A stretch of 64,000 nt of DNA from Aurantiochytrium sp. KH105 (lineage: Eukaryota; Sar; Bigyra; Thraustochytrida; Thraustochytriidae): positions 150,154-214,153 of the forward strand of contig BGKB01000128.1 in the NCBI GenBank assembly GCA_003116975.1, in the 5' to 3' direction. Shown here piece after piece: positions 5,879 to 53,700 of the stretch. Position numbers and translations under genes: made by a program. Numbering within the stretch: position 1 is the stretch's first letter; each line of letters opens with the position of its first letter. A model generated the notes under the pieces. The model worked only from the letters and a program-made list of their open reading frames with translations. It was not told where the DNA came from and did not search any database.

Positions 5879-6535
5879 CTATGATGACTTCTCCCGGACA
5901 GCCTCTGCCAAGGGCGGAGCGAGGATGTCGCGAAGGCGCATAAGGTTCGCGCAAGCGCGGAAAAGAAACCCAGGAAGAAAAAATGCAGCCCAGAGCGGCT
6001 CTCCCATGACCAGCGCCATGGCAGTCGCCTCGAAGCTCACGCATGACCAAAAGAGCACCTTTTTGTTGCCCAGATAGAGACGCACAATGGCCCCGCCGGG
6101 CATCTCCTTTTGATGAAAGTTGCCCGTCTCTGCCTTGTACATGACCACACCGTGAGCCACGACTTCGACCATGATGAGCGCCGCGTACAAGCCAGCTGCG
6201 AGAAAAGTGCTCATTGGAGGGTCGTAGTCGTCGAGCATTCTTGTGGCCGCAAGATGAAGACACAGGCAAGAGCTGACCCTGTCGATCACCATATCCAGGT
6301 AGTATCCGAGCTTGGAGGTCTGGTTGAGCGCGCGTGCGGCGATGCCATCGAAGGCATCGAGAAAGTAGCTCAGCGCGTAGAACCCAGCAAAGCCCCAGCT
6401 ATTGCCCTTGGAAAACTCCGCGTAGGCAAAGTACAAAAAGACAACTCGAAAGTAGTCGATAATATTCGCCACGTAGAGGACCACCGGGACCTGCATCGTG
6501 CTTGCTTCGCTTCGCCTTGCCTGGCCCTGCCCCAC
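5879..6535 (-). CDS. PIS1: CDP-diacylglycerol-inositol 3-phosphatidyltransferase (PI synthase)
   Basis: The enzyme joins CDP-diacylglycerol and myo-inositol to make phosphatidylinositol in the ER membrane. The 218-residue protein carries the complete CDP-alcohol phosphatidyltransferase signature: D60, D63-G64, A67-R68, G77, D81 and D85 (Dx2DGx2ARx8Gx3Dx3D). Several hydrophobic helices surround it, and the N-terminal VANIIDYFRVV block is typical of PI synthases. The length matches PI synthases (about 210-220 residues) rather than PGP or choline phosphotransferases. A second Met (residue 15, position 6493) begins MQVPVVLYVAN and is a likely alternative start, because the first 14 residues are not conserved-looking. 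The upstream region carries a CCTCG pentanucleotide run. Confidence 0.88.
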   Translation of the reverse strand: MGQGQARRSEASTMQVPVVLYVANIIDYFRVVFLYFAYAEFSKGNSWGFAGFYALSYFLDAFDGIAARALNQTSKLGYYLDMVIDRVSSCLCLHLAATRMLDDYDPPMSTFLAAGLYAALIMVEVVAHGVVMYKAETGNFHQKEMPGGAIVRLYLGNKKVLFWSCVSFEATAMALVMGEPLWAAFFLPGFLFRACANLMRLRDILAPPLAEAVREKSS

Positions 6536-7337: not shown

Positions 7338-10300
7338 ATGGGCGCCTTGGCCTCGCTTCCCGCCGAAGACCTGGGCGGGATTAACCTCAAAGGAACCGTG
7401 GAAGAGGTCGGCGACGTGGATGATGCCCAGCTCCTGCACACTGCGGAAAGCTTCCTCCTCGACATCCTCGAAGCGCGAGCTCCTCTAAGGAGCCCTTGGA
7501 CCGCGGAGCTGCACGACGCGCTTGGATTTGAGCACGAATCGAAGACCATTGACAATCTGTACATTCGTCTGGCCAAGACGCAAGAGTCAGAGGGCGCTTC
7601 CAATGAACCTGAAACTTTGAATACTTCGGCCGTAGTGCAGCATGGAGATGGCTCTTCGTGGCAGAATGCACGACTTTCGGCCGACGGGCTCCGACTCGTA
7701 GACTCTCTCTGTATACAAGCAATTCACGCCCATGAAGCGAGCGCGCCTGACCTCATGACAGACACCGTGCTTGGCCAGGTCTTTGTCGGCGCGCATGAGT
7801 ATTGGGGGCAAACAGTCGTGCTCGAGATGGAGCACCCTGAGAATGCCGAGACCACGACAGGTCGACTACTTCTTTCGATTGAAGCTGGCTTGCCGTGGAG
7901 CGAGGCGGACGAGCCGTCTGCAGAGGCCTCTGTGATCCAGCTTTTGGCGGACCTACCCACGCAGTATCTTCGTGAAAATTGCGTTCGTGTCTTGCAGGGC
8001 GCACTGCAGCTCGTGCTGGAATTTCGACGAGCCGGCGTCACGAACCCAGTCGGTTTTGCTCTCAAAGAAAAGGCTACATTCTCGAGCTTATTGCATCGAC
8101 TTTTCGCTGCGGCGGAAGAAGATCGTTTCGATGAGCTCATGCACGAGATATGCCAGACCGCTACTCCGCATGCTCTCGAAGAGGTCGAAGCACAGCGATT
8201 GGCGCGTTTGCCATCCCTCCAGCATCTCTCAGAACCGTTGCAGCATCAGCAACATCAACAACAGCTTATTCAGCAAGAAGAGCCAATGATGATCCAACAA
8301 CAGCAGCAGCAGGAACAGCAGTTCATTAAGCAAGAAGAACCACTGATGATGCAACAACAACAGCAGCAAGAGCAGCTCATCCAGCAAGAGGAACCGATGA
8401 TGATGCAACAGCAGCAACAACAGCAAATCCAACAACAAGAAATCATGCAAAGCATGCAAGAAACACTGTCGCAGTTCCCAACAGCTGACCGTAAAATCGT
8501 CGTCAGACGTGAAATCCGCCTCATGCCGCGAGAAGACCAGGAACGCTTTGTGACCGCCGTAAAGAAACTGATGGAAAGCGAAGATCAGGGTGGATCCGAA
8601 TGGCTTCGGCTCGCGGGTTACCACGGGTGGCCGAGCAATGATGGCAAGGGGTTCTGCGTGCATCGCGCTGAAGCCTTTCCAGGATGGCATCGCGCGTACT
8701 TGCTCGCTCTCGAGGAAGCCCTCCAAGAAGCTGACCGAGCACTAGGCCGCGACGGGATGATTGCGCTCCCGTACTGGGACTTTTCGCAATATGAGGTGAA
8801 TGGAGAGATTGTTCCGCGAATCGTGCGCGAGGCCTTTGGAGAAAATTTTTCCTTTCCCGAAAACTTTTTTCCGACAGACGCAATGCAAAACGCTTCGCGT
8901 GGGGTCCAGCGGTTCGTTGAGACGCAGTTCAAGAGGCTTAACAACGATGATCGCGTCTTGCGTAAACTGCAAAAGGCAGCAGTGCGCGAAAAATCAAACG
9001 AGTGTCTGGACACGTTTACGAATCTTGAACACTGGCAGCACGCTTCGACGGAGAACAAGCGCAGTGAATCCGTGGAGTCGCCGCACAATGCCACGCACAA
9101 CGCACTTGGGTATCCTCTGACCTCTCTCAAATTCGCCGCCTTTCATCCAATGTTCTGGCTGCTTCACTGCAATGCAGACCGGCAGTACGAGAAATACATA
9201 CAAATCGAGACGCGCGAAGAGTGTTTGGCAGAGCTCCGCAACCACCAAGCAATGATTGCGGCTTCGGGCGGGAAGAATCTCTTCCTTGACGAGCTTAAAC
9301 CGTTTCAGCGGCCTGCGGCCCTTGGCAAAGGAGGTTTCACCCTGGAGGACACGCTGCTGCCACTTGCAGAACTCGGATATGCCTATGATAACTTGCCCCC
9401 GCGACCCAAGCAGATGATGCGCGAGCTGCCGGCGTTTGCCTTGATTCGGAATGTGGACGTTGCCACGAAGCTGCTCGACGCAGATGGAGAAATGAAGAGC
9501 TTTGATGTACACATTTTTGTGTGCCGCAAGGATGCGACGGACCGTGCCGAGCAGCGTGCAGCGTTGGAGAATGCTATTGCCGCCAAAGAGTCAAATCAGG
9601 CATTCGATGTCTGGGCAGATGCCCAAGCAGCGTATGCTGGCGTGTGCACGTTGTTTGGTGGCAAAGGTCCTGCTTGCAAGAATTGTCGCGAGAACAAAGT
9701 GATTCATGCGCGCGTCAACCTGAACGACGCGCTCGCGCGTCTTGACGTGTCGAGCCGGCACGAAATCGAGATCCTTGCCGCTGTCTGCGAGGACGAAGTG
9801 GGCGCGCTTGTTCTTTTGGAGCAAGTGCAAGAGGTATTCGGGCCTGGCGTCGAAATTCCTGCTCCCGAAATTGTCGGTCCTGCACTTGAGAAAAGCCATG
9901 CACAAGAAGCGTTCAAGTCCGAAGCCGCTGATATTGTGGCGATTCAAGGGGCGCTCGCCCAGCGAGGGTTTTATGGTGGCGCGCTTGACGGCGACCACGG
10001 GCCGCGGACGAATGCGGCAGTAGTTTCGATGCAAGAGTTTGCAGGCGTCGCTCGGGATGGGGTTGTTGGGCCCATCACGAGGGCAGCTTTGCGTGTCCCT
10101 CGCGTGGATGTGCATCATGACGCACGAGAGGAGTCAGCATCGACGCTGCGCACGGGCGCCATCTCGTACTTTGTCGGTGCTTCACCTGGATATCTGGAGC
10201 GCAACCAAGTCATTGCGGTGATCAAAGAGGCTCTCGACGAATGGGCAAGTGCTGGAACAGTGAGCTTTTCTCAAGTGGACTGTCGCGAGGCTGCCGACTT

Positions 10301-10643
10301 GTACATTGGTTGGGCCGATCATACGGACGATAATCAGATGATCTTCGATGGGCCCGGCGGCGAAATTGCTCGTGCTGACGCGTCAAGCATCACGTTTGAT
10401 GTTTCCGAGCGGTGGTCATGTGGCGAGCCTATGGCGTCAAACCCGCTTGCAAAGAAAGAGGCCATGAGCAGAAAGCGGCACATCGTCGGTCGTCGCGTCT
10501 TCAGCGTCAAAGCAGTATGTCTTCACGAGATTGGCCACGTGCTTGGGCTTCATCACCAGTCAACAGGGGTGATGGCTCCGTACTATGCAGCACGGCGCAC
10601 GAAGCTTAGCGCCGAAGACAAGGCATTGCTGCTGATTCAATAA
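7338..10643 (+). CDS. tyrosinase / peptidoglycan-binding-like / matrixin metalloprotease fusion
   Basis: The protein has 1101 residues. Residues 1-295 match nothing I recognise and begin MGALAS, which fits the N-myristoylation pattern. Residues 300-375 are a Gln-rich spacer with repeated IQQEEPMMMQQ units. A tyrosinase central domain follows: CuA ligands H429, H442 and H451 (CVHRAEAFPGWHR), and CuB ligands H583 and H587 (HNATH) and H610 (FWLLHCNADR). The first His of the usual HH pair is Leu609. Residues about 870-930 form a type-1 peptidoglycan-binding-like domain (LAQRGFYGGALDGDHGP ... DGVVGPITRAAL). The C-terminal 150 residues are a matrixin/metzincin zinc protease with H1063-E1064, H1067 and H1073 in HExxHxxGxxH, plus a VMAPYY Met-turn. 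Expected activities are phenol oxidation and proteolysis. No signal peptide is visible, so location is uncertain. All metal ligands are present, so it is probably active. Confidence 0.85.
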   Translation: MGALASLPAEDLGGINLKGTVEEVGDVDDAQLLHTAESFLLDILEARAPLRSPWTAELHDALGFEHESKTIDNLYIRLAKTQESEGASNEPETLNTSAVVQHGDGSSWQNARLSADGLRLVDSLCIQAIHAHEASAPDLMTDTVLGQVFVGAHEYWGQTVVLEMEHPENAETTTGRLLLSIEAGLPWSEADEPSAEASVIQLLADLPTQYLRENCVRVLQGALQLVLEFRRAGVTNPVGFALKEKATFSSLLHRLFAAAEEDRFDELMHEICQTATPHALEEVEAQRLARLPSLQHLSEPLQHQQHQQQLIQQEEPMMIQQQQQQEQQFIKQEEPLMMQQQQQQEQLIQQEEPMMMQQQQQQQIQQQEIMQSMQETLSQFPTADRKIVVRREIRLMPREDQERFVTAVKKLMESEDQGGSEWLRLAGYHGWPSNDGKGFCVHRAEAFPGWHRAYLLALEEALQEADRALGRDGMIALPYWDFSQYEVNGEIVPRIVREAFGENFSFPENFFPTDAMQNASRGVQRFVETQFKRLNNDDRVLRKLQKAAVREKSNECLDTFTNLEHWQHASTENKRSESVESPHNATHNALGYPLTSLKFAAFHPMFWLLHCNADRQYEKYIQIETREECLAELRNHQAMIAASGGKNLFLDELKPFQRPAALGKGGFTLEDTLLPLAELGYAYDNLPPRPKQMMRELPAFALIRNVDVATKLLDADGEMKSFDVHIFVCRKDATDRAEQRAALENAIAAKESNQAFDVWADAQAAYAGVCTLFGGKGPACKNCRENKVIHARVNLNDALARLDVSSRHEIEILAAVCEDEVGALVLLEQVQEVFGPGVEIPAPEIVGPALEKSHAQEAFKSEAADIVAIQGALAQRGFYGGALDGDHGPRTNAAVVSMQEFAGVARDGVVGPITRAALRVPRVDVHHDAREESASTLRTGAISYFVGASPGYLERNQVIAVIKEALDEWASAGTVSFSQVDCREAADLYIGWADHTDDNQMIFDGPGGEIARADASSITFDVSERWSCGEPMASNPLAKKEAMSRKRHIVGRRVFSVKAVCLHEIGHVLGLHHQSTGVMAPYYAARRTKLSAEDKALLLIQ
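8236..8460 (+). repeat. CAG/CAA-rich coding repeat (Gln-rich spacer)
   Basis: Imperfect repeats encode IQQEEPMMIQQQQQQ, IKQEEPLMMQQQQQQ and IQQEEPMMMQQQQQQQ, joining the unknown N-terminal region to the tyrosinase domain. CAG and CAA codons are mixed, which limits slippage. It is likely a flexible linker. Confidence 0.85.
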
Positions 10644-10989: not shown

Positions 10990-12798
10990 TTAGAGCTTGG
11001 ACTTGGGGTTCTTTTGCTGCTCGGAGAGGATCTTGTTGTCCTCGATGATCTGACGGATCTCGCGCTTGACGATCTTGCCGGTGGCGCCGCGAGGAAGCTG
11101 CTCGGACCAAATGTACAAGTGCGTGGGGCACTCGAACTTGGCGAGGTCCTCGCACTTGGCAACGATCTCCTCGAGCGTCAGCTTGGCACCGTTCTTGGGG
11201 AAGACGACGATACCAACCTCCTCGCCAAGAGTGGGGTGGGGAACGGGAATGGCGGCGCACTCGGCGACACCAGGGTGCTGGTAGACACCGTCCTCGACGG
11301 CGACGCAAGAAATGTTCTCACCTCCACGGATGATAATCTCCTTGGTGCGGCCGCCCAGGTGCAGGTAACCTCCCTCGTCAATGTGGCCAACATCGCCGGT
11401 GCGCAGCCATCCATCGGCAGTCATGGTATCCGCGGTGGCCTCGGGCTTACGCCAGTACTCCTTGAGGTTTGCGGCGCCCTTGACCATGACATTACCCTTT
11501 TGGCCAGCGGGCAGGGGCTTGTCGTTGTCGTCCCAGACGGCAATCTGCATGCTCGGCGTAGCGCGGCCGCAGCTGGTGGGGCGCTCGGCATACGTATCAC
11601 CATCGTTGAGGCAGGTGAGGGCGTTGGTTTCGGTCATGCCAAAGCCCTGCAGAGGGGCAGCGCTCTTGAAGTTGCTCTGCACGTCCTTGACCATTGTCGA
11701 GGGGGGGGCAGCACCGCCACCGCCAACAGCCTCGAGAGAGCTGGTGTCGTATTTTTTAAAGTTAGGATGGTTCATCATGTCGAGGACCATGGTGGGCACA
11801 CCAGTAAAATTGGTAACGCGCTCGCGCTCGATGAGCTGGAGGGCCTGCTCGATGTTCCACTTGTCCATCATGACCATCTTGCGGCCAATGACAAAGGAGA
11901 GGAAGAAGACCGAGTGGAGGCCCGTGGCGTGGAAGAGAGGCACGTTGAGCAGGACGGCAAAGTGTTTGGGGTCGACCTCCTCCGGCGTGAAGGTTTTTCC
12001 GGCCTTGACGGCAGCCATCATCTTTTGGCGGATACTGTGCGCCACGGCGCAAGTGATGGCGTGGCAGATGCTGCGGTGGGTGAGCACGACACCCTTGGGA
12101 TGGCCCGTCGTGCCCGAGGTGTACATGATGAGGGCATTGTCGTCCTTGCCGGCAGTAAGAGGCGGCATGGCGTCGCCGCGGCGCTTAGACACGACGTCCT
12201 TGTACATGAGGAGCTTGGGATGGGGCTCAACGCTTCCGGCGTTAGCGTCGTCGAAGAGGATGACCTTTTCGAGGTTGGTGAGCTTGTCGAGAATGGGGAC
12301 GAGGAGCTTGTAGCGGTCGAGATCGCAGAGCACGATCTTGGTGCCCGAGTTGTCGAGGCCGTACTCGAGCTCCTTGGTCTTCCACCACGAGTTCATGGGC
12401 ACGCAGGTGGCCCCGACCGAGGTGGACGCCATGACGCCGATGGCGTACTCGGGTCGGTTTTTGGAGACGATGCAGACGCGGTCGAGGGTCTTGACGCCAA
12501 AATCGTTAATGAGCGCAGATCCGAGGGCGGAGGCCTCCTCGTCGGCCTCGCGAAAGGTGTAGCGTTTGTCCTCATAGACGAGGAACGGGTTGTCGAGGTT
12601 TCCGGTCGCCTTGGGGAAGCTGAAGAGGTCTACAAGCGTCTGGGGGCCGTTCGGGTACACCTGGTACTTGACGCCCTTGTGATGCGGGGCATGGTTCTCC
12701 TCAAACGCGATGACCTCCTCGCGCATCTCCAGCAGCGTCCCGGGCGCGTGCAGCGTCGCGTCGATCGCCGCCTCCTGCTCCTTGGTCAGCGCCGGCAT
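10990..12798 (-). CDS. PTS1-bearing acyl-CoA synthetase (AMP-forming), array copy 1
   Basis: An ANL-superfamily adenylate-forming enzyme that activates a carboxylic acid with ATP to an acyl-adenylate and then transfers it to CoA. The 602 residues carry the AMP-binding signature YTSGTTGHPKG (226-236), the GGRTKEIIIRGGENIS hinge and A8 region, and the C-terminal PRGATGKIVKRE motif with the catalytic lysine. The protein ends in -SKL, a canonical type 1 peroxisomal targeting signal. It is the last of five same-strand paralogues; its 5' end faces copy 2 across 1.4 kb. N-terminal residues TLHAPGTLLEMREEVIAF align with the other copies, supporting this start. Substrate chain length cannot be read from sequence; a medium- or long-chain fatty acid is plausible. 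Confidence 0.88.
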   Translation of the reverse strand: MPALTKEQEAAIDATLHAPGTLLEMREEVIAFEENHAPHHKGVKYQVYPNGPQTLVDLFSFPKATGNLDNPFLVYEDKRYTFREADEEASALGSALINDFGVKTLDRVCIVSKNRPEYAIGVMASTSVGATCVPMNSWWKTKELEYGLDNSGTKIVLCDLDRYKLLVPILDKLTNLEKVILFDDANAGSVEPHPKLLMYKDVVSKRRGDAMPPLTAGKDDNALIMYTSGTTGHPKGVVLTHRSICHAITCAVAHSIRQKMMAAVKAGKTFTPEEVDPKHFAVLLNVPLFHATGLHSVFFLSFVIGRKMVMMDKWNIEQALQLIERERVTNFTGVPTMVLDMMNHPNFKKYDTSSLEAVGGGGAAPPSTMVKDVQSNFKSAAPLQGFGMTETNALTCLNDGDTYAERPTSCGRATPSMQIAVWDDNDKPLPAGQKGNVMVKGAANLKEYWRKPEATADTMTADGWLRTGDVGHIDEGGYLHLGGRTKEIIIRGGENISCVAVEDGVYQHPGVAECAAIPVPHPTLGEEVGIVVFPKNGAKLTLEEIVAKCEDLAKFECPTHLYIWSEQLPRGATGKIVKREIRQIIEDNKILSEQQKNPKSKL

Positions 12799-14227
12799 CT
12801 TCTCTGCCTTCTCTCCTTCTCACACGCACGCTGCTCCCTTGCTCCGCTCGCTCTGCGTTGACTCTGCGCTTGCTCTGCACTCGCTCGCTCGCGTCCTCGA
12901 CTCCCTCGTTGCAGATCCGGGTTTGCTCTCTCCCCCTCGCTCCCGATCTTCTTTCTCCTGGGTGCCGGAAGGAGGCGCGCCTAGCCGCCGCCTAGGCCCT
13001 GCTACCCGCACACCGCCGCACGGTTTGTTTCTCTGCGCCTGTTTGTTTGCCCAGATCATCGCAGGCCAGACAGACCCAACCCGCCTGTCGTCCCAGTCCG
13101 TGTCCACCTCGGCAGCCACACAGCCACTGCCCCGCCACTAGTACGTCGCGATCCTTGCCGTTGATTTGATCACTCCTCCCCACCCCGCGCAGCCGCAGCG
13201 GTATCCTTCGCGAGCTCCCCCTCCTCTGGCTCGAACGACACAAGCTCCCGAGTTCACAGACAGCTGCACTGCAGCAGCTGCAGCTGCAGGTGGATGGATG
13301 GATAAAAGCGAAGGAAGGAACAAGCGCTGCTCGTGCTGCAGGCACGCACGCAGGGCGCGCGCGGTTGCGGCACGGCCTAGGAAAAACGCACGCCGCTGCC
13401 GCGAGCGTCTCCCTGCCGTCGATCCAAGGCTGCGGCGGCGAGCGGCGGGCGACGGAAAGATACGAATCGACTCACGAGGGCGCGAGCAACCATCCAAAGC
13501 GCCGCAGCCGCACCGCTTTCTTTCTTGCGGCGCGGACTGTAGCGTAGCTCTCTAGCTTGTAGCAGTAGCAGGTGCGGTGGTTAGTCAGCTGGGTCGGTCC
13601 GACGCGCCGCCTCGGTCCGCCTCGCGCCGCCGGTCCTCTTTTCTCTCCTCCTCTTTTCTCCGCAGCGTGGTTCTCCTCTGGATCAGCTCTTCTAGCTCCC
13701 CGTTCTCGCCCGCCCCGCCCGCGACGATGCTCGCGCTCGCCCGCGCCTCGGCTTCCGCGTTGGCGTGACTTGGCTCGCCGCCTGCGAGGCGCCTGCAATG
13801 CGACGCGAGGCGAGGCGAGGCGAGGCGAGGCGAGGCGAGCGATGCGCGCCGCGCCGCGTCGTCAGAGCGCGGGAGGGGAGGACTGGCAGGCTGGCCCCGG
13901 GAAGCCCCGCGGCGCGAGGTCCCCGGACCTCGCGCGGGCGCGCGCCGGGCTGAGAGCGCTCGGGGGGAGCCTAGCGAGCGAGGGAGCGAGGGAGAACCAA
14001 CGAGCGAGCAAGCAAGCAAGCATGGAGAAAGAAAGCGCGCATTGCATGCATGGAGATCGAAGATAAGTTAGAGAGAGAGCTACACCGCTGCAAGGCTCGG
14101 ACGATGATGGTCGCATGAGGATCGTGCAGCGGTCGGCATGCGGACAGCAAAGGTCGCTTGACTGAGAACCACAGCTCAGGCGCCGGACAATAGGATAATC
14201 GCAGTCAGGTCACCGAACGACAGTAGT
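12799..14227. other. upstream region of acyl-CoA synthetase 1
   Basis: GC-rich, with no supported gene. Contains a CTGCAGCTGCAG palindrome cluster at about 13261-13290, a (GCGAG)n pentanucleotide array at 13805-13839 and an AAGC run at about 14009-14020. It presumably includes the promoter of copy 1 and the 3' region of copy 2. Confidence 0.5.
13805..13839 (+). repeat. (GCGAG)n pentanucleotide array
   Basis: Seven near-perfect GCGAG units. The same pentamer array recurs at about 38059-38088 and 41904-41929, and as the complement near 6637-6654. Confidence 0.9.
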
Positions 14228-16045
14228 TTAGAGCTTGGAGGCGGGCGCCTGCTTCTGCTGCTCGGAAAGTAGCTTCTTGTCCTCGATAATCTGGCGGATG
14301 TCGCGCTTGACGATCTTGCCGGTGGCCCCACGCGGAAGCTGCTCGGGCCAAAGGTACAGGTGCGTCGGACACTCGAACTTGGCGAGGTCGCTGCACTTGG
14401 CGACGATCTCCTCGAGCGTCAGCTTGGCGCCGTTCTTGGGGAAAACGACAATGCCGACCTCCTCGCCGAGCGAGGGGTGAGGAACAGGGATGGCCGCGCA
14501 CTCGGCGACGCCAGGGTGCTGGTAGACGCCATCCTCGACGGTGACGCAGGAAATATTCTCGCCACCTCGGATGATGATCTCCTTGGTGCGCCCTCCGAGG
14601 TAGAGGTACCCCTCCTCATCGAGATGGCCAACGTCCCCGGTGCGCAGCCAGCCGTCACGCGTGATGGTGTCGGCCGTGGCCTCCGGCTTGCGCCAGTACT
14701 CCTTCATGACAGAGGCCGACTTGACCATTACATTACCCTTTTGGCCAGTGGGCACAGGCTTGTCGTCGTCGTCCCAGATGGCAAGTAGAAGTGTTGGCAC
14801 GGCGCGGCCGCAGCTCGTGGGCTTGGCGCAATAGGCGTCACCATCCGTGAGCACGGAAAGGGCATTCGTCTCCGTCATGCCAAAGCCCTGGGTGGGCGCG
14901 GCGTTTTTAAAGTTCTTGCCAATGTCCTTGGTGATGGTGCTCGGAGGCGCCGCCCCGCCGCCGCCCACGGCCTCGAGCGAGCTGGTGTCATACTTGCTAA
15001 AGTTCGGGTGGTTCATCATGTCGAGCACCATGGTCGGCACACCCGTGAAAGCTGTGATGCGCTCGCGCTCCACGAGCTGAAGTGCACGCTCCGGATTCCA
15101 CTTGCTCATCATGACGATCTTGCGACAAGTCACGATGGAGATCATGCAAACGGCATGAAGACCCGTGGCATGGAAAAGGGGCACATTGAGCAGAACGCCA
15201 GCTTTGCTCAACTCTTCAGGCGTGGGCTCTTCGGCAGTGGGTGTGATACCCGCTTTGACGGCGGCAACGGTTTTGTTCAGCACAGCATGGGCAATCGCTG
15301 AGAAAAGAGCGTGGCAAATGCTGCGATGCGTCATCACCACGCCTTTGGGGTGGCCCGTGGTGCCAGACGTGTACATGATGAGAGCGTTTTCGTCTTTGCT
15401 CGCGGTGAACGGCGGCATCGTTGCGCCCTGGTGCTTGGCGACGGCATCGTCGTAGGCGATGCGCTTGGCGTGCGGCGCAAAGGCATCGGTGCCCGGCCCG
15501 TTGAGCAGAAGAACCTTTTCAACGGTGTCGAGTTTGTCGAGAATTGGCTCGAGGAACTTGTAGCGATCCGCGTCACAAATGACAACTTTAGTGCCCGAGT
15601 TCTCGAGTCCGTACTCGAGCTCTTTGGTCTTCCACCACGAGTTCATCGGTACAAAGCAGGCGCCGACCGAGGTCACGGCAATGAAGGCCACCAAGTACTC
15701 GATGCGGTTCTTGGAGACGGCGCAGACACGATCGCCCTGCTGCACGCCAAATCCGTTCACAAGGACGTCACCGAGAGCTGCGGCTTCGGCATAGACCTGG
15801 GTAAAGGTCCTGCGGTCATCCTCAAAGACGAGAAACTCGTTCTCCATCACGCCCTTCGCCTTGGGAATCTCAAACACGTCGACCAAGGTTTGTGGCGCGT
15901 TGGGAAAGACCTTATACTTGACGCCCTCGTGGTGAGGCGCGTGCTTGTCCGGGAAGGCAATGACCTCTTCCCGAAGCTCCAGCAGCGTGCCGGGCGCGAA
16001 CACCTTTTCCGCGATCGCATCCTCGAACGGCCCTCGGCTCATCAT
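14228..16045 (-). CDS. PTS1-bearing acyl-CoA synthetase (AMP-forming), array copy 2
   Basis: This 605-residue paralogue of copy 1 shares the YTSGTTGHPKGV P-loop, TGVPTMVLDMMNHPNFSKYD block, GGRTKEIIIRGGENIS hinge and PRGATGKIVKRDIRQ catalytic end. The C-terminus is -SKL (PTS1). By eye it is closest to copy 3: both have DAIAEKVFAPGTLLE-type N-termini, and their FAPHAKRIAYDDA segments are nearly identical. The start gives MMSRGPFEDAIAEKV; the extra seven or so residues compared with copy 3 are not conserved. Peroxisomal activation of fatty acids for beta-oxidation is the expected role. The variable segment just after the P-loop (about 255-280) is where the copies differ most. Confidence 0.88.
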   Translation of the reverse strand: MMSRGPFEDAIAEKVFAPGTLLELREEVIAFPDKHAPHHEGVKYKVFPNAPQTLVDVFEIPKAKGVMENEFLVFEDDRRTFTQVYAEAAALGDVLVNGFGVQQGDRVCAVSKNRIEYLVAFIAVTSVGACFVPMNSWWKTKELEYGLENSGTKVVICDADRYKFLEPILDKLDTVEKVLLLNGPGTDAFAPHAKRIAYDDAVAKHQGATMPPFTASKDENALIMYTSGTTGHPKGVVMTHRSICHALFSAIAHAVLNKTVAAVKAGITPTAEEPTPEELSKAGVLLNVPLFHATGLHAVCMISIVTCRKIVMMSKWNPERALQLVERERITAFTGVPTMVLDMMNHPNFSKYDTSSLEAVGGGGAAPPSTITKDIGKNFKNAAPTQGFGMTETNALSVLTDGDAYCAKPTSCGRAVPTLLLAIWDDDDKPVPTGQKGNVMVKSASVMKEYWRKPEATADTITRDGWLRTGDVGHLDEEGYLYLGGRTKEIIIRGGENISCVTVEDGVYQHPGVAECAAIPVPHPSLGEEVGIVVFPKNGAKLTLEEIVAKCSDLAKFECPTHLYLWPEQLPRGATGKIVKRDIRQIIEDKKLLSEQQKQAPASKL

Positions 16046-16898
16046 CTTTCCTTCCTTGCTCTGCTCTGTTTTCTCAAGAGCTCTGAGATGCTCTGTGCTG
16101 CTGTTCTCCCAGTCTTCCTCGGTCGCAATTGCAGCTTTGCCGCTTCCCCGCCCATTGTCTCCCTGCCTGTCTCCGTGCGCTTGCCTGTCGCACAGTATTC
16201 CCCTTTTCGATCCTGCATCGCACCGTCGCAGTCACACTGTCAGGTGTCCCGATAGACCTTGACGGGGCCAATTACCGCCAGCAACCGCGGTATCTTTCTC
16301 GCGGTCGGACCGCCCGCGCCGGTCCGCCGGGCGAGAAGACGACCGCTCGTCCCGACTCCGGACGCGCGCGACAATGACGGCGGCGAGAAAGGGATCCCAA
16401 GTTTGGCAAGGAACGACAGCGACTGCGAATTGCGGTGCGATGCGCGACAGAGTCAGAGAACATTACTGTAGCCAGGTAGACGTATACAACCATCTACATC
16501 AGCCGTACTACTTACTATACGATAAGTGCATCTTCATTTGTATTTATGGCATGGCTTTATCCGCTAATCGTTGATTCCATGAGTATGCTCGTGCGTATTT
16601 TTACAGACTTCTTCGAGACCTGTCAGGTAGTCGTTGTTGGCGCAACAGGACTTCGAGAAGGCCGGGATTCTGGCCGCCAAAAGAGGGGTCTCAATAGAGC
16701 TATAGACGGAAAATTGCCGCACCGGCGGAAACAAAGAACCGATGACTCCAACTCGCGCCTCAGGCTAGACGGACAACTTACTTGACTGCTTTATAAAAAA
16801 AACAACGATTTGCTTTGCTGTACTGGGAAAAAAGAGAAGAGGAGAGAGTCGACGAGAAAGAGAAGAAGAGGGGTACCAGAGCTCTGACTCGGGGGCGA
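16046..16898. other. intergenic region between acyl-CoA synthetases 2 and 3
   Basis: Includes the promoter of copy 2, with one CTTGACGG motif (16258-16265), followed by AT-richer DNA near 16480-16600 and the 3' region of copy 3. No gene seen. Confidence 0.5.
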
Positions 16899-18692
16899 TC
16901 AGAGCTTGGACTTGGGGTTCTTCTGCTGCTCGGAGAGGATCTTGTTGTCCTCGATGATCTGGCGGATCTCGCGCTTGACAATCTTGCCGGTGGCCCCGCG
17001 CGGGAGCTGCTCGGGCCAAATGTACAAGTGCGTGGGGCACTCGAACTTGGCGAGATCATCGCACTTGGCAACGATCTCCTCGAGGGTCAACTTGGCGCCG
17101 TTCTTAGGAAAGACCACGATGCCGACCTCCTCGCCGAGCGAAGGGTGGGGAACTGGGATGGCCGCGCACTCGGCGACGCCAGGGTGCTGAAAGACACCAT
17201 CCTCGACGGCGACGCAGGAAATGTTCTCGCCTCCGCGAATGATAATCTCCTTGGTGCGACCGCCAAGATGCAGATACCCATCCTCGTCGAGATGGCCCAC
17301 GTCTCCGGTACGCAACCAGCCATCGCGCGTGATGGTCTCGGCCGTGGCTTCTGGCTTGCCCCAGTACTCCTTCATGACGGAGGCACCCTTGATCATGACA
17401 TTGCCCTTTTGGCCAGCGGGCACGGGCTTGTCGTTGTCGTCCCAGACGGCAATCTCCACCGTCGGCACGGCTCGGCCGCAACTGGTGGGCTTGGCTCGGT
17501 AGGCATCGCCGTCAGTGAGGGCGGCGACTGCGTTGGTCTCCGTCATGCCAAAGCCCTGGTTCGGGGAGGCCTTTTTGAAGTTCTTGCCAACGTCCTTGAC
17601 CATTGAGCTCGGTGGCGCAGCGCCACCGCCACCAATGGCCTCGAGAGAGCTCGTATCGTATTTGCTAAAGTTCGGGTGATTCATCATGTCGAGCACCATG
17701 GTCGGAACACCGGTGAAATTTGTAATGCGCTCTCGCTCCACGAGCTGGAGGGCGCGCTCAGGCTCCCACTTGCCCATCATGACAATCTTGCGGCACGCAA
17801 GGATGGAAATAATGCAAACAGCGTGAAGTCCCGTGGCATGGAAGAGAGGTACATTCAGCAGAATGGCCTTGGCTTTGGTTGCTTCGGCACTTTCCTCTGC
17901 AGCGGGCGCAGTGCCTGCTTTGACGGCCTCAATCGTTTTGGTGAGTGCAGAATGCGCAACAGCTGCCGTAAGAGCGTGGCAGATGCTGCGGTGCGTGAGC
18001 ACCACACCCTTCGGGTGGCCCGTAGTGCCAGACGTGTACATGATGAGAGCGTTCTCATCCTTGGTCGCCACAAAGGGGGGCATGCTCGCACCCTGATGCT
18101 TTGCAATGGCGTCGTCATAGGCAATGCGCTTGGCGTGCGGCGCAAAGGCGTCGGTGCCCGGTCCGCTGAGCAGGAGAACCTTACTGAGGCCGGTAAGCTT
18201 GTCGAGCACAGGCTCGAGAAACTTGTAGCGATCCGCATCGCAAATGACCACCTTGGTACCCGAATTGTCGAGTCCGTATTCGAGCTCCTTCGTCTTCCAC
18301 CACGAGTTCATGGGCACGAAGCAGGCACCAACCGAGGTCACGGCGATGAGCGCCACAATGTATTCGATGCGGTTCTTGGAGACGACACAGACACGGTCGC
18401 CGCGCTGCACGCCGAGTCCATTCACGAGGGCATCGCCGAGCGCTGCGGCTTCGGCAAAGACCTGGCCAAAGGTCCTGCGATCGTCCTCGAAGACGAGGAA
18501 CTCATTGTCCATCACACCCTTGGCCTTGGGGATGTTAAAGACATCGACCAAGGTTTGCGGTGCGTTGGGGAAAACCTTGTACTTGACGCCATCGTGGTGG
18601 GGCGCATGTTTGTCCGGGAACGCAATGACTTCTTCTCCGATCTCCAGCAGCGTGCCGGGGGCGAACACCTTTTCCGCAATCGCGGCCTCCAT
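16899..18692 (-). CDS. PTS1-bearing acyl-CoA synthetase (AMP-forming), array copy 3
   Basis: The chosen start gives 597 residues beginning MEAAIAEKVFAPG, which aligns with copy 2. The open frame runs 65 codons further upstream, but that extension is a low-complexity Arg/Ser/Gln string. The chosen ATG is directly preceded on the sense strand by an AGCAAGCAAGCAAGC leader like those before other genes here. All ANL motifs are intact (YTSGTTGHPKGV, GGRTKEIIIRGGENIS, PRGATGKIVKRE), and the C-terminus reads KNPKSKL, identical to copy 1 and a PTS1. This mixture of similarities, body like copy 2 and tail like copy 1, is what gene conversion or recent tandem duplication would leave. Confidence 0.88.
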   Translation of the reverse strand: MEAAIAEKVFAPGTLLEIGEEVIAFPDKHAPHHDGVKYKVFPNAPQTLVDVFNIPKAKGVMDNEFLVFEDDRRTFGQVFAEAAALGDALVNGLGVQRGDRVCVVSKNRIEYIVALIAVTSVGACFVPMNSWWKTKELEYGLDNSGTKVVICDADRYKFLEPVLDKLTGLSKVLLLSGPGTDAFAPHAKRIAYDDAIAKHQGASMPPFVATKDENALIMYTSGTTGHPKGVVLTHRSICHALTAAVAHSALTKTIEAVKAGTAPAAEESAEATKAKAILLNVPLFHATGLHAVCIISILACRKIVMMGKWEPERALQLVERERITNFTGVPTMVLDMMNHPNFSKYDTSSLEAIGGGGAAPPSSMVKDVGKNFKKASPNQGFGMTETNAVAALTDGDAYRAKPTSCGRAVPTVEIAVWDDNDKPVPAGQKGNVMIKGASVMKEYWGKPEATAETITRDGWLRTGDVGHLDEDGYLHLGGRTKEIIIRGGENISCVAVEDGVFQHPGVAECAAIPVPHPSLGEEVGIVVFPKNGAKLTLEEIVAKCDDLAKFECPTHLYIWPEQLPRGATGKIVKREIRQIIEDNKILSEQQKNPKSKL

Positions 18693-19251
18693 GCTTGCTT
18701 GCTTGCTGCTCTCCCTCTGTTCTCGCTGCAGTCGGCTCTGCTCTGCTCTCCTCTCTCTGCTCCGGCTCGCTCTGCGCTGCTCGGGGCCGCGCTGCGCTTT
18801 TCTGCTCTGCTGCGCTCTCTCCTCTTCGCAGCTTGGCTCGGACCAAGCAAGCCAAGCAAGCAGGGCTAGGCGGTAGTATCTACGCACGGCACGGGATCGA
18901 TCACCTTTATGACCGGACGGCGGATCGGACCCAGTGGCACGTGGTCAGTCCGCCGCGCTTCTGATTCGCCTCAAGTAGTTCGGGGGGCGGAGAAAGAGGG
19001 AGGGAGGGGGGGGGGGGGGAGGAGAGGAGAGGCTCGATCGGGCGGATGTTCAGAATGGTGTTGCCTTTGATTGGATTCATACGGAAGAAGAAAGCAAAGT
19101 AGGTCTGTAGAAGGCATTCAAGCATAATGAGCAAACAAGCCGGTGGACCAGGAGAGCAAGGAATCGAACGTGACGGGCGCACCATCAAAATCGAGAGAGA
19201 TAAATGCAAGATAGTGATAAAGATTGGGGGCGCAGAAATGGTGAAAATCAA
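18693..19251. other. intergenic region between acyl-CoA synthetases 3 and 4
   Basis: Contains the AAGC-type leader of copy 3 and a long G homopolymer at about 19008-19019 in a G/A-rich tract. No gene seen. Confidence 0.5.
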
Positions 19252-21048
19252 TCAGAGCTTGGAGGCGGGCACAGCCTCGTCCTTGACCTTGCCGGCCTTG
19301 ATGTCGGCCAAAATGGTGCGCTTATGGATCTTGCCCGTGTCTCCACGCGGGAGCTGCTCGGGCCAAAAGTAAAGATGCGTAGGCATCTCGTAACGCGCGA
19401 GGTTCACGCAAACATCGCGAATGCTCTGGAGCGAGGGTCGCGCGCCAGACTGGCTAAAGACGGCAATGCCGACCTCCTCGCCAAGCGTGGGATGGGGGAC
19501 CGGGATGGCCGCCACTTCATTGATATCATCGTGCTTGTAGACTGCGTTTTCGACAACGACGCAGGAAATGTTCTCGCCTCCGCGAATGATGATCTCCTTG
19601 CTACGGCCCTTGAGCTGGAGGAAGCCTTCCTCGTCAATGACGCCAATGTCACCGGTTCGGAACCAGCCCTCGGCTGTGATGCTCTTGGCCGTAGCCTCGG
19701 GCTTGTTCCAGTACTCTTTGAGGCAGGTGGACCCACGAATGACAAGCTCTCCCTCGGCGCCCGCGGGCACGGGCTCGTCGCGAGCATTCCAGATGGCAAT
19801 CTCGACATTGGGGATGGCCTTGCCGCAGCTATCCGGCTTGCGCCGGTACATGTCGCCTTCGGTGATGGTTGCAATGCCATTGGTCTCCGTCATGCCCCAG
19901 GCCTGCAGCGGAGACGCTTGTTTGAAGTTCTTGTCGATGTCGTTCACCATGGTGCTCGGAGGCGCCGCGCCACCGCCGCCGAGAGACTTGAGCGTGCTCG
20001 TGTCCCGCTTCTTAAAGTCCGGGTGGGTCATCAGGTCGAGAGCCATGGTGGGCACGCCAGTAAAGTTTGTAATGCGCTCGGTCTCAATGAGCTCCAGGGC
20101 AAGCTTGGGATCCCACTTGCTCATGAGCACGATCTTGCGGCAGCTAATGATAGAGAGCAGACCGACGCAGTGGTGGCCCGTCACGTGAAAGAGCGGAACG
20201 CCGAGCAAGAAGGCCGACAGCGATGGGTCTTCGGGCTCGGGCAAGGTCTCGCCAGCTCTGGCGGCGGCAAGCGTCTTCTCGTACGTCATGGCTGCAACAG
20301 CGCCCGTCATGGCTTCGCCAATGCTGCGGTGCGTGAGCACGACGCCCTTGGGGTTGCCGGTGGTTCCCGAGGTGTACATGATCATGGCAGGGTCGTCCTT
20401 TTGGCAGGGAAAGGGCGGCATCTTGGCGCCGGCGTGCTTGCTGATGACCTCGTCAAAGGCGGTGGTCTTGGCGTTGGGGCGGAACTTTTCAGTGCCGGGC
20501 CCACTGAGGAGAAGAACGCGCTCCAGTGCGGAGGCGCGGCCGTCCAGGAGAGGCTCGAGCTGCACGTAGCGGTCGGCGTCGCAGACGACGACCTTGGCGC
20601 CCGAATCATCGAGCCCGTACGAGAGCTGCTCCGTCTTCCAGTACGAGTTGAGGGGTGCAAAGATGGCGCCGACCGAGGTCGCCGCGATCATGGCGACAAT
20701 GTACTCGTTGCGGTTCTTGGAGAGAGCGACAACGCGATCGCCCTTCTTCACGCCGTACTCGTTGACGAGGGCGTCGCCGAGCGCGGCGGCGGCGTCAAAG
20801 ACCTCCTGAAAGGTCATGCGTCCGGTCTCGTCGACGAGCAAGTCGTTCTTCATGACCTGCTTCTCGAAGGGCACCTTGAAGATATCCTCCATGGTCTGGA
20901 ACCCGTTCGGGAACACCTTCATCTTGACGCCCTTGAAGTGCGCCGCCTCGCCCTCGTGCTTGACCACCTCTTCGCGCATCTCCAGCATCGTGCCCTTCGC
21001 GAACACCTGCTCCCACACCTCCTTCTCCAGCCCCGCGAGCCCCGCCAT
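19252..21048 (-). CDS. PTS1-bearing acyl-CoA synthetase (AMP-forming), array copy 4 (divergent)
   Basis: The 598-residue copy 4 is the most divergent of the five. Its P-loop is YTSGTTGNPKGV (Asn instead of His), the Trp pair in the NSWWKTKELEYG block is replaced (NSYWKTEQLSYG), and the C-terminal catalytic segment reads PRGDTGKIHKRTILADI. Active-site features remain: the P-loop, a GGENIS hinge and the terminal Lys motif. It ends in -ASKL (PTS1). The differences lie in regions that line the acyl pocket in ANL enzymes, so a different substrate from the other copies is a reasonable inference. The start MAGLAGLEKEVWEQVFAKGTMLE aligns with copy 5. Confidence 0.87.
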   Translation of the reverse strand: MAGLAGLEKEVWEQVFAKGTMLEMREEVVKHEGEAAHFKGVKMKVFPNGFQTMEDIFKVPFEKQVMKNDLLVDETGRMTFQEVFDAAAALGDALVNEYGVKKGDRVVALSKNRNEYIVAMIAATSVGAIFAPLNSYWKTEQLSYGLDDSGAKVVVCDADRYVQLEPLLDGRASALERVLLLSGPGTEKFRPNAKTTAFDEVISKHAGAKMPPFPCQKDDPAMIMYTSGTTGNPKGVVLTHRSIGEAMTGAVAAMTYEKTLAAARAGETLPEPEDPSLSAFLLGVPLFHVTGHHCVGLLSIISCRKIVLMSKWDPKLALELIETERITNFTGVPTMALDLMTHPDFKKRDTSTLKSLGGGGAAPPSTMVNDIDKNFKQASPLQAWGMTETNGIATITEGDMYRRKPDSCGKAIPNVEIAIWNARDEPVPAGAEGELVIRGSTCLKEYWNKPEATAKSITAEGWFRTGDIGVIDEEGFLQLKGRSKEIIIRGGENISCVVVENAVYKHDDINEVAAIPVPHPTLGEEVGIAVFSQSGARPSLQSIRDVCVNLARYEMPTHLYFWPEQLPRGDTGKIHKRTILADIKAGKVKDEAVPASKL

Positions 21049-21847
21049 CTTCCCTTGCTCCCTCGCGGCCTCCTGCTCCTCCTCTTGGTTCCTCGCTCGC
21101 TCGCTCGCTCGCGTTGATTAGGTTTCTGCTTTGCTCGCCGCACGCCGCGCCTCGCGACGCCTCGCTCGCCTAGCGCGGCCTAGCAGCGCAGGCGTCGTCC
21201 GACCCGCCGCCGTCGGTTCCAGGATACCGCCGCGGTTCGCCGTCGACCGGCGCTGTCTGGCCAGGATCGGCACGGAGCGCACGCGCCGCGGCGCCTGAAA
21301 CCCGCCGCGCGAGCGAGGGGAGGCCGCCGCCGGCGAGGGCCTGCGACGGAGCCGACCTGCGCCCGCGACGGCGAGGGTGCGGACAACAGACGAGCGGAGC
21401 AGGGCCAGCTGCCGAGGAGTGAGACCGGCATGTGGCCAGACTGATGATTGGCGGTCGACTGGGTGGGTCCGGGGAAGTGATGGTTAGTTATGCCATGTTG
21501 GAGGGACTCGGAGAAGACGGTGGTGGATGGTGTGGATGGCAGGGGAGCTTTCGGTGAGGTAGGCAGACTAGAAAGCGAGCAAGCAAGCAAAAGCAAGAAA
21601 GCAAAACCTCAATCGAGTGCAGCGCAGATGAACAAGGGCAAGCATGGACGAAAAAGCGAACGAGGTCGTTCGTAAACGTGGAGCACGGAAGATCTGACTT
21701 TTGCTTGGATGTTAGCTCGTGCGCGGCATTTGGACCAACGATGCATGCGCGATCCGATCCGAAGAGAGCGGTGGACAGAAAACTTGTCCCACGCCGAGTT
21801 GCTTCTTTGCTCGACCTCCGAGACGATTAACGGCTGACGCGTATAAG
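21049..21847. other. intergenic region between acyl-CoA synthetases 4 and 5
   Basis: GC-rich. Holds GCAAGC repeats at about 21578-21600 and no supported gene. Confidence 0.5.
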
Positions 21848-23650
21848 CTAGAGCTTGGCGGCGGGCTTCTTTTGCTGCTCGGAGAGGATCTTGCCGTTGT
21901 CAATCGCGTCGCGAATGCCACGCTTGAAGATCTTGCCCGTGGCACCGCGCGGGAGCTGGTCGGGCCAAATGTACAGGTGCGTGGGCAGCTCGAAGCTAGC
22001 CAGGTCAACGCAGGCGGCACGAATGGCTTCGAGAGTGACCTCTGCGCCGGGCTTGGGGTAGACGACAATGCCGACCTCTTCGCCGAGCGTAGGATGCGCG
22101 ACAGGAATGGCGGCGCACTCGGCGACACCCGGGTGCTGGTAGACGCCATCCTCGACAGCAACGCAAGAAATATTCTCGCCGCCGCGAATGATAATCTCCT
22201 TGGTGCGGCCTCCCAAATGCAAATAACCATCCTCGTCGAGCATGCCAACGTCACCCGTGCGAAGCCAGCCATCAGGGGTAATGGTCTTGGCAGTCGCCTC
22301 GGGGTTGCGCCAGTACTCCTTGAGGACGGAGGCAGCCTTGACCATGAGGTTGCCCTTTTGGCCAGGGGGCAGAGGCTTGTCGTTATCGTCCCAAATCTCG
22401 TAGTAGAGACCGGGAATGGCACTGCCGCAGCTCGTGGGCTTGAGCTTGTAGATTTCACCAACGGTCGATCCTGTGACTCCGCTCGTCTCCGTCATGCCGA
22501 AGCCCTGAAGAGGCGCGGCGCGCTTGAATTTGGTGCTGACGTCCTTGACCATGGTGGTCGGCGGCGCAGCGCCACCACCTCCGACGGTGTCGAGCGAGCT
22601 GGTATCGTACTTGGAAAAGTTGGGGTGCGCCATAAGGTCAAGAACCATGGTTGGTACGCCCGAGAAGCTGCTGATCTTCTCGCGCTCAATAATTTGCAAG
22701 GCCTTTTCCGGCTCCCATTTGCTCAGGAGGACAATCTTGCGCTTGGCCACAATGGAAATGAAGCACACAGCGAGAAGACCCGTGACATGGAAAAGTGGAA
22801 CGTTGAGCATGGTAGCGCCAACCGTGTTCGAGGGCTCTGAAGGCGGAGTGCCGGCAAGAGCGTTCGAGACAGCCGTGTTGATTGCGCCCTTGGCAACGGT
22901 GCCGACAAGTGCATGCGTAATGGATCGATGCGTGAGCACGACGCCCTTAGGATGCCCGGTGGTTCCCGACGTATACATGATGATAGCGTTGCCGTCCTTG
23001 TTGGCTGTAAACGGCGGCATCGACGCGCCGCGCCGCTTGCCGACTGCTTCGTTGTAGGTGGTGAGCTTTGCGTGCGGCTTGAAGGCATCCGACCCCGGGC
23101 CGTCGCAGAGAAAGACCTTTTGCAGCTCCGGAAGTTTGTCGAGAAGAGGCTCGGCGTTGGCGTACCGATCGGCGTCGCAAATCAGGACTTTTGTTCCCGA
23201 GTTCTCGAGCCCGTACTCGAGCTCCTTGGTCTTCCAGTATGAATTCATGGGCACGAAGACAGCGCCAATTGAGGTGATTGCAATGAAGGCGACAATGTAC
23301 TCGTGGCGGTTCTTGGAGAGCATGCAAACGCGATCGCCACGTTCGACTCCATAGTCGTTGACGAGCGCAGCGCCCAGAGCGGCGGCCTCGGCGTATCCTT
23401 GTTCGTAGGTGTAGCGCTTGTCTTCGTAGACGAGGAATTCGTTCTTCTGTGCGCCCTGGCTGATGGGGATGTTGAAGACCTCGGGCAAAGTCTGCGGGCC
23501 GTTCGGGAACACGGGCACCTTGACGCCCTTGTGATGCGCCGCCGAGCCTCCCTCGTGCCGGATGACCTCTTCTCCCAGCTCGAACATGGTCCCCTTGGCC
23601 ACGACCTGGGCCTTGACCTTTGCCTCCAGCTCTGCGAGCGAGGGCGCCAT
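21848..23650 (-). CDS. PTS1-bearing acyl-CoA synthetase (AMP-forming), array copy 5
   Basis: The chosen start gives 600 residues, MAPSLAELEAKVKAQVVAKGTMFE, aligning with the other copies. An upstream in-frame ATG at 23701 would add 17 residues that nothing supports. The YTSGTTGHPKGV P-loop, GGRTKEIIIRGGENIS hinge and PRGATGKIFKRGIRD end are present. The C-terminus is -AKL, a recognised PTS1 variant of -SKL. It is the most upstream member of the array in transcriptional order. The A5-like block reads GFGMTETSGVT rather than GFGMTETNA, another sign of divergence around the substrate pocket. Confidence 0.87.
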   Translation of the reverse strand: MAPSLAELEAKVKAQVVAKGTMFELGEEVIRHEGGSAAHHKGVKVPVFPNGPQTLPEVFNIPISQGAQKNEFLVYEDKRYTYEQGYAEAAALGAALVNDYGVERGDRVCMLSKNRHEYIVAFIAITSIGAVFVPMNSYWKTKELEYGLENSGTKVLICDADRYANAEPLLDKLPELQKVFLCDGPGSDAFKPHAKLTTYNEAVGKRRGASMPPFTANKDGNAIIMYTSGTTGHPKGVVLTHRSITHALVGTVAKGAINTAVSNALAGTPPSEPSNTVGATMLNVPLFHVTGLLAVCFISIVAKRKIVLLSKWEPEKALQIIEREKISSFSGVPTMVLDLMAHPNFSKYDTSSLDTVGGGGAAPPTTMVKDVSTKFKRAAPLQGFGMTETSGVTGSTVGEIYKLKPTSCGSAIPGLYYEIWDDNDKPLPPGQKGNLMVKAASVLKEYWRNPEATAKTITPDGWLRTGDVGMLDEDGYLHLGGRTKEIIIRGGENISCVAVEDGVYQHPGVAECAAIPVAHPTLGEEVGIVVYPKPGAEVTLEAIRAACVDLASFELPTHLYIWPDQLPRGATGKIFKRGIRDAIDNGKILSEQQKKPAAKL

Positions 23651-24733
23651 TGTCTCCTTGGCTGGCTTGCTCGCCGGCCAGCTCAACTTGCTCTGCAACA
23701 CGCTCCTTTTCCTCCTGCTTCAAGTTCTGCAAATCGATCTTGCGCCGCGTCTCAATAGCGATTTGCTGCGCCAGCCTGACCCGCGTTGCCTCTCCTCGTC
23801 CCAGTATTCCCGGCCTTGGCGGGCGGGTTTGGGATACCGCTCTCGCTCCTGGCTCGCGCTCGCCTCCTCGCCATCTCGCCTCAGTCTCCTCCCGGATCCG
23901 CTTTTCGCCGCCGAGTCCGACTCGCGCCGCGCCGCGTGTCGGACGAGCCCGCCGCGCCTCGCGACATGGCCTTGCGTTTTGCACCTGCAGCTGCAGCTGC
24001 TCCGGCTTCGATCATAGGGACCGGCCTCGTCGCTGCGGCGGCGACTTCCTCGCGGCTGCGGCCAAGCTCGGGCTTATCACTTTCTTGGTGTGCGGATCCA
24101 ACGAGATCGCCTTTGGAGACCCCACGCAGCACCTGCAGCTGCCAGCCAGATCGGTTCGTGATAATGTTGTTCGTTCGCTGTCGAGTTCGACTTGGACTTT
24201 GTTGCGAAGACGGTGGGAGGGAGGGAGGGAGGTCACTCGGTCCGGCTGGGTTACGGACGGGACCACACGGCGAGGCGAGGTGAAGAAGAAGGCAAGACGA
24301 GGCCAGGCTGAGGCAAGGAGGCAACGGGGAGCTTTTGCGCGGGGAGGAGGAGATTCCGTGGAAGGTACGGATAGGCCTGGAGCGTTAGGGTGTTTGTAAG
24401 TGATCAATTCGGCATGGGCAAGTGAAAAGGCTTCTCGCGGCAGAATGTGGCGTTAGCCCCGAAGCCATCCGCTCGCCGGCAACCGGATCGATCCACGTAT
24501 TATACCCTGACAGCATCATTCAGTTTTCGGACTCCTGGCCTTCGATTTTTGATAAAATCAATCAAGCACTCACTGTGTGAATCAAATCATATCATTCAAA
24601 ATCATTTGAGAACATTCAATCATAACAACACATTCAGAGAAACAGACGCCGCACCGCAGGTATCTCGGGGATGCGACGACGGGGGCAAAAAGAAAGAGAG
24701 TGGACGCGCCAGCACTCGATCGCTAGCGATTGT
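23651..24733. other. intergenic region, acyl-CoA synthetase 5 to ATP-grasp gene
   Basis: Contains the promoter of copy 5, CTGCAGCTGCAGC palindromes near 23983-24002 and 24130-24142, and an AT-rich stretch from about 24500 that is probably the 3' UTR of the ATP-grasp gene. No gene seen. Confidence 0.5.
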
Positions 24734-53047: not shown

Positions 53048-53700
53048 GGTTTCCGCCTCACGCGCTCACCGACACCGCGCAGAGCGCCGGCCGCGGGCCC
53101 TGGGCGCGCGCGCTTCTCTCCGGCGACGACTCCGGCGACGACTCCGGCGCTCCCGCGGCCGCCGCGCGCGCGCGAGGTCTGCGAGGCACGGACTCGAGTT
53201 CTCGTGTTCGGCGTCTGCTCGAGTGACTTTGCTGGTCTGTCTCGGCAGCGCTGTCTCCGCCCACGCGGTTTGAAAGCGAAAAGGCAAGCGAAAAGGGCGG
53301 CTCGCGGAAAGCCCCACTTGCGGCGCGCGGTTTGCCCTTCTTGCGGCCGCCATTCCCGACTTGCGTCCGCGGCGAGGCCGGCCGGCAGAGCAGCCAGGCA
53401 TCCTCCCGCGTTTGCAGAGTCTGACTTTCAAACACGCAAACCCTCCCGCCCCCGACCCCGACGCGCGCGAGCCCGAGCGCGAGCTCGCAAGGAAGCCGCC
53501 GCCGCGCAGAGCGCCCCGCCCGCGCCCGCGCCCGCCCCGCCCCGCCGAGCCCGCGCGCGCGCAGCGGCGCCGACCCCGGTCGAGCAGGACCCAGGCTGGA
53601 GGAGAGGAATCCGGTCGGTGCTCGAGCCGGGAGCGCAGTCGTACTCCGCCTCGTGCAGCCCGCGACGGGGGCTGCGCGCGCCGACGAGGACGCAGGGAAG
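53048..53700. other. divergent promoter region of membrane protein and golgin
   Basis: GC-rich. Carries GCCCCACTTGCG (53311-53322) and TTTGCCCTTCTTGCG (53331-53345), resembling the element arrayed at 26501-26588. The open frame of the golgin extends upstream to 53653, but that part is not protein-like. Confidence 0.5.

Follow-up and report, generated by a model that had tools for sequence, protein, structure and literature searches.

A conserved tyrosinase–matrixin fusion as a candidate latent phenoloxidase with a built-in activator

What would a phenol oxidase and a metalloprotease do in one polypeptide chain? The question is raised by a gene at 7338..10643 (+ strand, stop codon included) in the window, i.e. 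the whole 64,000-nucleotide stretch of Aurantiochytrium sp. KH105 DNA analysed here, from a genome of 76 Mb. The 1101-aa product combines a tyrosinase, a peptidoglycan-binding-like domain (PGBD) and a matrixin. The analysis showed one uninterrupted frame, intact catalytic residues in both enzymes, a conserved family of relatives, no cysteine switch in the protease and retention of its calcium-site residues. Our main reading, to which we give a probability of roughly 40%, is a calcium-triggered latent phenoloxidase that would be anchored inside the cell and switched on by its own matrixin.

One frame, two halves

The gene is a single open frame of 1101 codons from ATG to stop. Upstream, the frame is closed by a stop 8 codons ahead of the ATG; downstream, no further methionine occurs before residue 140. 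The same start and frame are found in a second copy of the gene on contig C134 and in P0002, a protein from the thraustochytrid Hondaea fermentalgiana that has the same fusion and is 99% identical to the window protein. Pfam placed Tyrosinase at residues 420-621 (E 1.6e-28), PG_binding_1 at 864-918 (E 9e-12) and Peptidase_M10 at 941-1095 (E 7.1e-23), all beyond the curated cut-offs. The open frame and these matches bear out the original prediction of one intact frame with the three domains, and the copper histidines, zinc motif and Met-turn that it listed are all present and conserved in relatives. Three parts go beyond that first reading: a hemocyanin-like C-terminal domain (~691-855), a degenerate C2 fold (54-183) and a myristoylation-like N terminus. 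A Gln/Glu/Met-rich linker of tandem repeats (8239..8426, +) differs in length between the window copy (C128) and the C134 copy, with 86 of 90 codons alignable. A structure model of residues 379-1101 (pLDDT 87.8, pTM 0.90, the latter being the one measure of inter-domain contacts) predicts two zymogen-like halves within one confidently modelled chain.

The family used for comparison comprises 47 proteins including the window protein, in which Pfam found Tyrosinase in 47, M10 in 43, PG_binding_1 in 40, C2 in 14 and EF-hands in one. These counts exclude P0002 (a near-duplicate of P0001), P0020, P0041 and P0043 (a fungal tyrosinase); the alignment used for residue conservation retained P0002 and has 48 rows. 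P0020 and P0041, where the fusion is joined to an acetyl-CoA acetyltransferase or enolase, look like gene-model chimeras.

The tyrosinase core found by Pfam (residues 385-690; 8490..9407, +) holds the copper-site histidines 429/442/451 and 583/587/610, and Cys440. Histidines 429, 442, 583 and 587 and Cys440 are kept in 48/48 rows, His451 in 47/48 and His610 in 47/47 ungapped rows. By its six copper ligands the window protein is a tyrosinase (type-3 copper, PF00264), with phenol oxidation as the putative activity. The core is followed by a predicted hemocyanin-like C-terminal (shielding) domain (residues 691-855; 9408..9902, +). In the fold comparison, whose VIA rows are dominated by the tyrosinase half, modelled residues 387-850 matched latent tyrosinases and one complete hemocyanin unit, the C-terminal shielding domain included. 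The oxidase half is accordingly modelled as a member of the latent tyrosinases and hemocyanins with such a shield, a prediction from the fold; sequence alignments stop before, or are too weak in, the part of the shield where a placeholder residue would sit.

In the protease half, the PGBD (9927..10091, +; Pfam) is probably the equivalent of the pro-domain of matrix metalloproteases (MMPs). A fold search with the model matched this half to pro-MMP-10 and pro-MMP-9 (TMt 0.72-0.75), and the family profile matched pro-MMP-1 across both pro-domain and catalytic domain (E 3e-35). The pairing of PGBD and matrixin had been likened to that in MMPs from the outset, and the Pfam, fold and profile matches support the likeness; the PGBD is predicted to be docked as in pro-MMPs. 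The matrixin catalytic domain (residues 941-1095; 10158..10622, +; Pfam and MMP-11 alignment) carries the zinc motif HEIGHVLGLHH (1063-1073) and Met-turn M1079 (together 10524..10574, +). With HExxHxxGxxH and the Met-turn in place this is a matrixin domain (PF00413), and proteolysis is its putative activity. Among ungapped rows, His1063 is kept in 42/42, Glu1064 in 41/42, His1067 in 42/43, His1073 in 41/42 and Met1079 in 41/41; the odd row at the zinc site is Volvox africanus P0042, and P0040, which has no M10, aligns a chance histidine at two zinc positions and so inflates those two counts by one.

How such a protease might be restrained is a separate matter. A motif scan for an RCGxPD-like or PRCGxPD cysteine switch found none in 47/47 family proteins; a PRC triplet in P0008 falls in the C-terminal domain of the oxidase half. 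The segment RVDVHHD (10101..10121, +), in the region of the MMP switch, holds D924, which lies close to the missing cysteine position and is Asp in 44/45 ungapped rows. Karilysin, a bacterial matrixin, is kept inactive by an aspartate according to an excerpt of the report on it (PMC6949598), and by analogy an aspartate switch is possible in this family, with D924 as a candidate for contact with the zinc.

The calcium site is kept and the structural zinc site is not (10344..10409, +), the correspondence of positions being taken from the MMP-11 alignment. What we take to be the matrixin calcium-site residues are all present in the window protein and are common among ungapped rows of the family (D1004 40/46, G1005 41/46, G1007 44/45, D1021 45/45, E1024 43/45). 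The MMP structural-zinc ligands, which we take to be H168, D170, H183 and H196, are replaced by D997, N999, R1012 and T1019, and are mostly absent in the family (His997 1/44, Asp999 7/44, His1012 9/46, His1019 2/46, ungapped rows).

In the most serious rival the tyrosinase does the work, e.g. in making a pigment or defence compound from a catechol, and the matrixin is kept mainly for regulation or docking rather than as an activator. Volvox africanus P0042 keeps the fusion, M10 domain included, and has lost the zinc motif (HDIGN...D), so that proteolysis is not needed in every member. P0012 and P0014, of the paralogue clade, have one extra residue between the Gly and the third zinc His. Between the C128 and C134 copies dN/dS was 0.14 over 1097 codons; by part, with few changes in each, it was 0.09 (N-terminal), 0.22 (Gln-rich), 0.11 (tyrosinase), 0.16 (C-terminal domain), 0.06 (PGBD) and 0.27 (M10). 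Every part is under purifying selection (dN/dS <0.3), and the higher value of M10 than of tyrosinase would suit a docking role. However, nearly every row long enough to cover the zinc histidines, the glutamate and the Met-turn has kept them, and we regard the docking role as unlikely, if still worth keeping in mind.

N terminus and predicted location

The protein starts with MGALASL (7338..7358, +), which fits an MGxxxS-type N terminus and for which myristoylation is predicted. MG starts recur in 21 of the 45 M-starting family proteins. This is not a clean test, since many of the rows without MG seem to be cut short or have other starts; six M-starting members, apparently truncated, begin ≤60 residues from the first copper site. 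The rows are also related, and the 8% background for MG starts was an assumption, so the figure serves as a count and not as a probability. Scored with a pattern that we take to be PROSITE-like, a myristoylation-like N-terminal motif is present in 18/47, including the window protein, P0012, P0003, P0004, P0024 and P0045. The genome has an N-myristoyltransferase gene. Among 16 matches without M10 three begin with MG, one of which, P0052, is a C2-tyrosinase that resembles a piece of the tyrosinase–matrixin family.

Residues 54-183 (7497..7886, +) are predicted to form a degenerate C2-like fold, from an N-terminal model of low confidence (pLDDT 60.9) for which Foldseek ranked C2 domains highest. 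The acidic loop residues of this region are replaced, and Pfam C2 gave no match in the window protein; the paralogue P0012 of the same genome carries a clear C2 domain. Two members end in CaaX-like tails, CVIS in P0030 and CTLL after a basic run in P0044. Scanned for hydropathy over their first 40 residues, 44/47 members, the window protein among them, showed no strongly hydrophobic N terminus; the three exceptions are P0037, P0050 and P0051. Taken together, the MG starts, C2 domains, EF-hand and CaaX-like tails, and the lack of a signal-like N terminus, point to the cytosolic face of membranes.

This bears on the proposal in the original prediction that both enzymes cross-link and remodel the same matrix. 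On that reading the two halves would share an outside target, with the matrixin trimming and the tyrosinase cross-linking extracellular matrix or scale. Both catalytic sites are intact, MMPs classically act outside cells and the family includes proteins of organisms whose matrix is elaborate, e.g. Volvox. The missing signal-like N terminus, the frequent MG starts and the C2, EF-hand and CaaX-like features nevertheless argue against matrix remodelling, and we judge a shared outside target improbable.

An intracellular protease could also be the working enzyme itself, with the tyrosinase-hemocyanin half as its oxygen or redox sensor. The hemocyanin-like fold, C-terminal domain included, and the retention of all copper ligands would fit a sensor, but latent tyrosinases are oxidases with the same fold and the searches made found no precedent. 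We see a sensor as a long shot.

Copies, relatives and origin of the fusion

The C134 copy encodes the same fusion in 1102 aa and lies in a syntenic stretch, 92.4% identical over 13.5 kb and 87% over the 5.5 kb preceding; we read it as the other haplotype. A paralogous fusion locus is present on C5 and C21 (964 aa each). All M10 and PGBD matches in the genome, four of each as lower bounds, fall in the four frames of C128, C134, C5 and C21. A third tyrosinase pair, on C15 and C6 (L005 and L006), has no M10 match, and the C15 frame (708 aa) apparently has hydrophobic stretches. Database names for the fusion proteins include 'Matrix metalloproteinase-C' (P0002) and 'Matrix metalloproteinase-2' (P0012).

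On the DNA and protein records used here, the chance that assembly, gene modelling or splicing created the fusion as an artefact is negligible, given the same frame in the C134 copy, the paralogue and P0002, both domains in 42/46 other family members, transcriptome-assembly-style names on P0018, P0019 and P0044, and 1101 codons without a stop under purifying selection throughout. Intron read-through and misassembly are rejected on the strength of the second copy, the paralogue, the family and the transcript-style records, which answer at the family level the concern that two genes had been joined.

Next to the fusion gene in the window, at 10990-23701 (-), stands a tandem row of at least five AMP-binding ligase (acyl-CoA-synthetase-like) frames related to one another, the first two recognized by Pfam and the others by DNA similarity, and a CDP-alcohol phosphatidyltransferase gene lies just upstream of the fusion gene at 5879-6535 (-). 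Further away are a 2068-aa frame with 72- and 168-bp tandem repeats that resembles a long coiled coil (53653-59859, +) and a 126-bp unit repeated 8.7 times (60596-61692).

The relatives come from H. fermentalgiana, Durusdinium trenchii, Symbiodinium sp. KB8 (a partial record without M10), Volvox africanus, Volvox carteri, Emiliania huxleyi and others. The coupling of a phenol oxidase to a matrixin, noted at first as unusual, is indeed so, but the architecture search gave a conserved family rather than a one-off. Tyrosinase and M10 distances co-vary across the 37 of 47 proteins covered (Mantel r 0.57; reached in 0/2000 permutations), which is what joint inheritance of the parts would produce.

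A bacterial or viral source of the fusion was considered and is not supported. A contig scan of other genomes gave 43 pattern matches and nine confirmed bacterial loci, which match query residues 369-675 only, with none in PGBD or M10; on viral contigs five stretches fitted a pattern and none was confirmed. The scan patterns were derived from the tyrosinase part alone, and matching regions rather than flanks were compared, so a distant bacterial or viral fusion could be missed. A search of the open-access PMC literature by title or abstract start found no description of a tyrosinase–matrixin fusion.

Proposed mechanism and comparison with known systems

That one half activates the other by cleavage, the second suggestion of the original prediction, is the version we favour because both halves are predicted to be zymogen-like; both catalytic residue sets are also intact across the family. 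The location, the trigger and the activating cut are what we infer. The chain, putatively myristoylated, would be held on the cytosolic side of membranes, where the matrixin would stay off because calcium is scarce, perhaps with help from D924 at the zinc. Wounding or calcium entry would turn it on, and the active matrixin would cut the chain it belongs to or an adjacent one and thereby free the copper site of its shield. The resulting quinones might then seal, cross-link or poison at the wound. The links to calcium are the kept calcium-site residues, C2 in 14/47 and EF-hands in 1/47. Against the mechanism we count the zinc loss in P0042, the altered zinc motif of P0012 and P0014, the degenerate C2 of the window protein and the hydrophobic N termini of P0037, P0050 and P0051.

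A bolder version would make the family a widespread eukaryotic class of phenoloxidase: a lipid-anchored two-zymogen chain in which a calcium-dependent, aspartate-switched matrixin, facing the cytosol, would be the covalently attached activator of a latent tyrosinase, i.e. a quinone bomb triggered by wounding or lysis. We offer it tentatively, at clearly worse than even odds. How latent tyrosinases are activated is an open question, and here a predicted-latent oxidase and a protease with an intact motif share one polypeptide, in a fusion that is conserved across thraustochytrid, dinoflagellate, Volvox and haptophyte records; the question thereby becomes addressable with one construct and one point mutant. 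In an excerpt of a 2021 review, no activating protease is known for plant or fungal polyphenol oxidases (PMC8517187). If the bolder version is true, this would be the first built-in polyphenol-oxidase activator. The family also suggests that MMP-type domains can act intracellularly, restrained without the usual cysteine. The parts were already known; within the open-access PMC literature searched, no description of the combination, its breadth or the predicted intracellular setting was found.

Among known systems, the oxidase half has its closest solved relative, by both sequence and fold, in the molluscan hemocyanin functional unit, and the likeness extends to the C-terminal domain. Hemocyanins are oxygen carriers of the hemolymph in which the unit is repeated many times, and we know of no molluscan hemocyanin with a protease domain. 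Latent tyrosinases and polyphenol oxidases (AbPPO4, Aspergillus oryzae MelB, MdPPO1) likewise have a type-3 copper core followed by a C-terminal shield; those of fungi and plants become active once the shield is removed or displaced, as described in the same excerpt (PMC8517187). They lack a protease, whereas the window protein adds PGBD and matrixin in the same chain, and unlike them the tyrosinase–matrixin family has C2 or lipid-anchor-like N termini.

With MMPs (pro-MMP-1, -9 and -10; MMP-11) and karilysin the family shares the pro-domain and matrixin, HExxHxxGxxH, the Met-turn and the calcium-site residues. It differs in having no cysteine switch (47/47), structural-zinc ligands that are mostly lost, no visible secretion signal and a tyrosinase ahead of the protease half; with hydropathy as the guide to the signal, the window protein does not appear to be a canonical secreted MMP on any of the first three counts. 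Karilysin offers the precedent for an aspartate in the role of the cysteine (PMC6949598, excerpt). In the arthropod prophenoloxidase cascade a latent phenoloxidase is likewise activated by a protease, again as given in the excerpted review (PMC8517187). In that cascade activation is the task of a separate serine protease and the shield sits at the N-terminal end, whereas in the window protein the candidate activator is a metalloprotease of the same chain and the predicted shield is C-terminal to the copper core.
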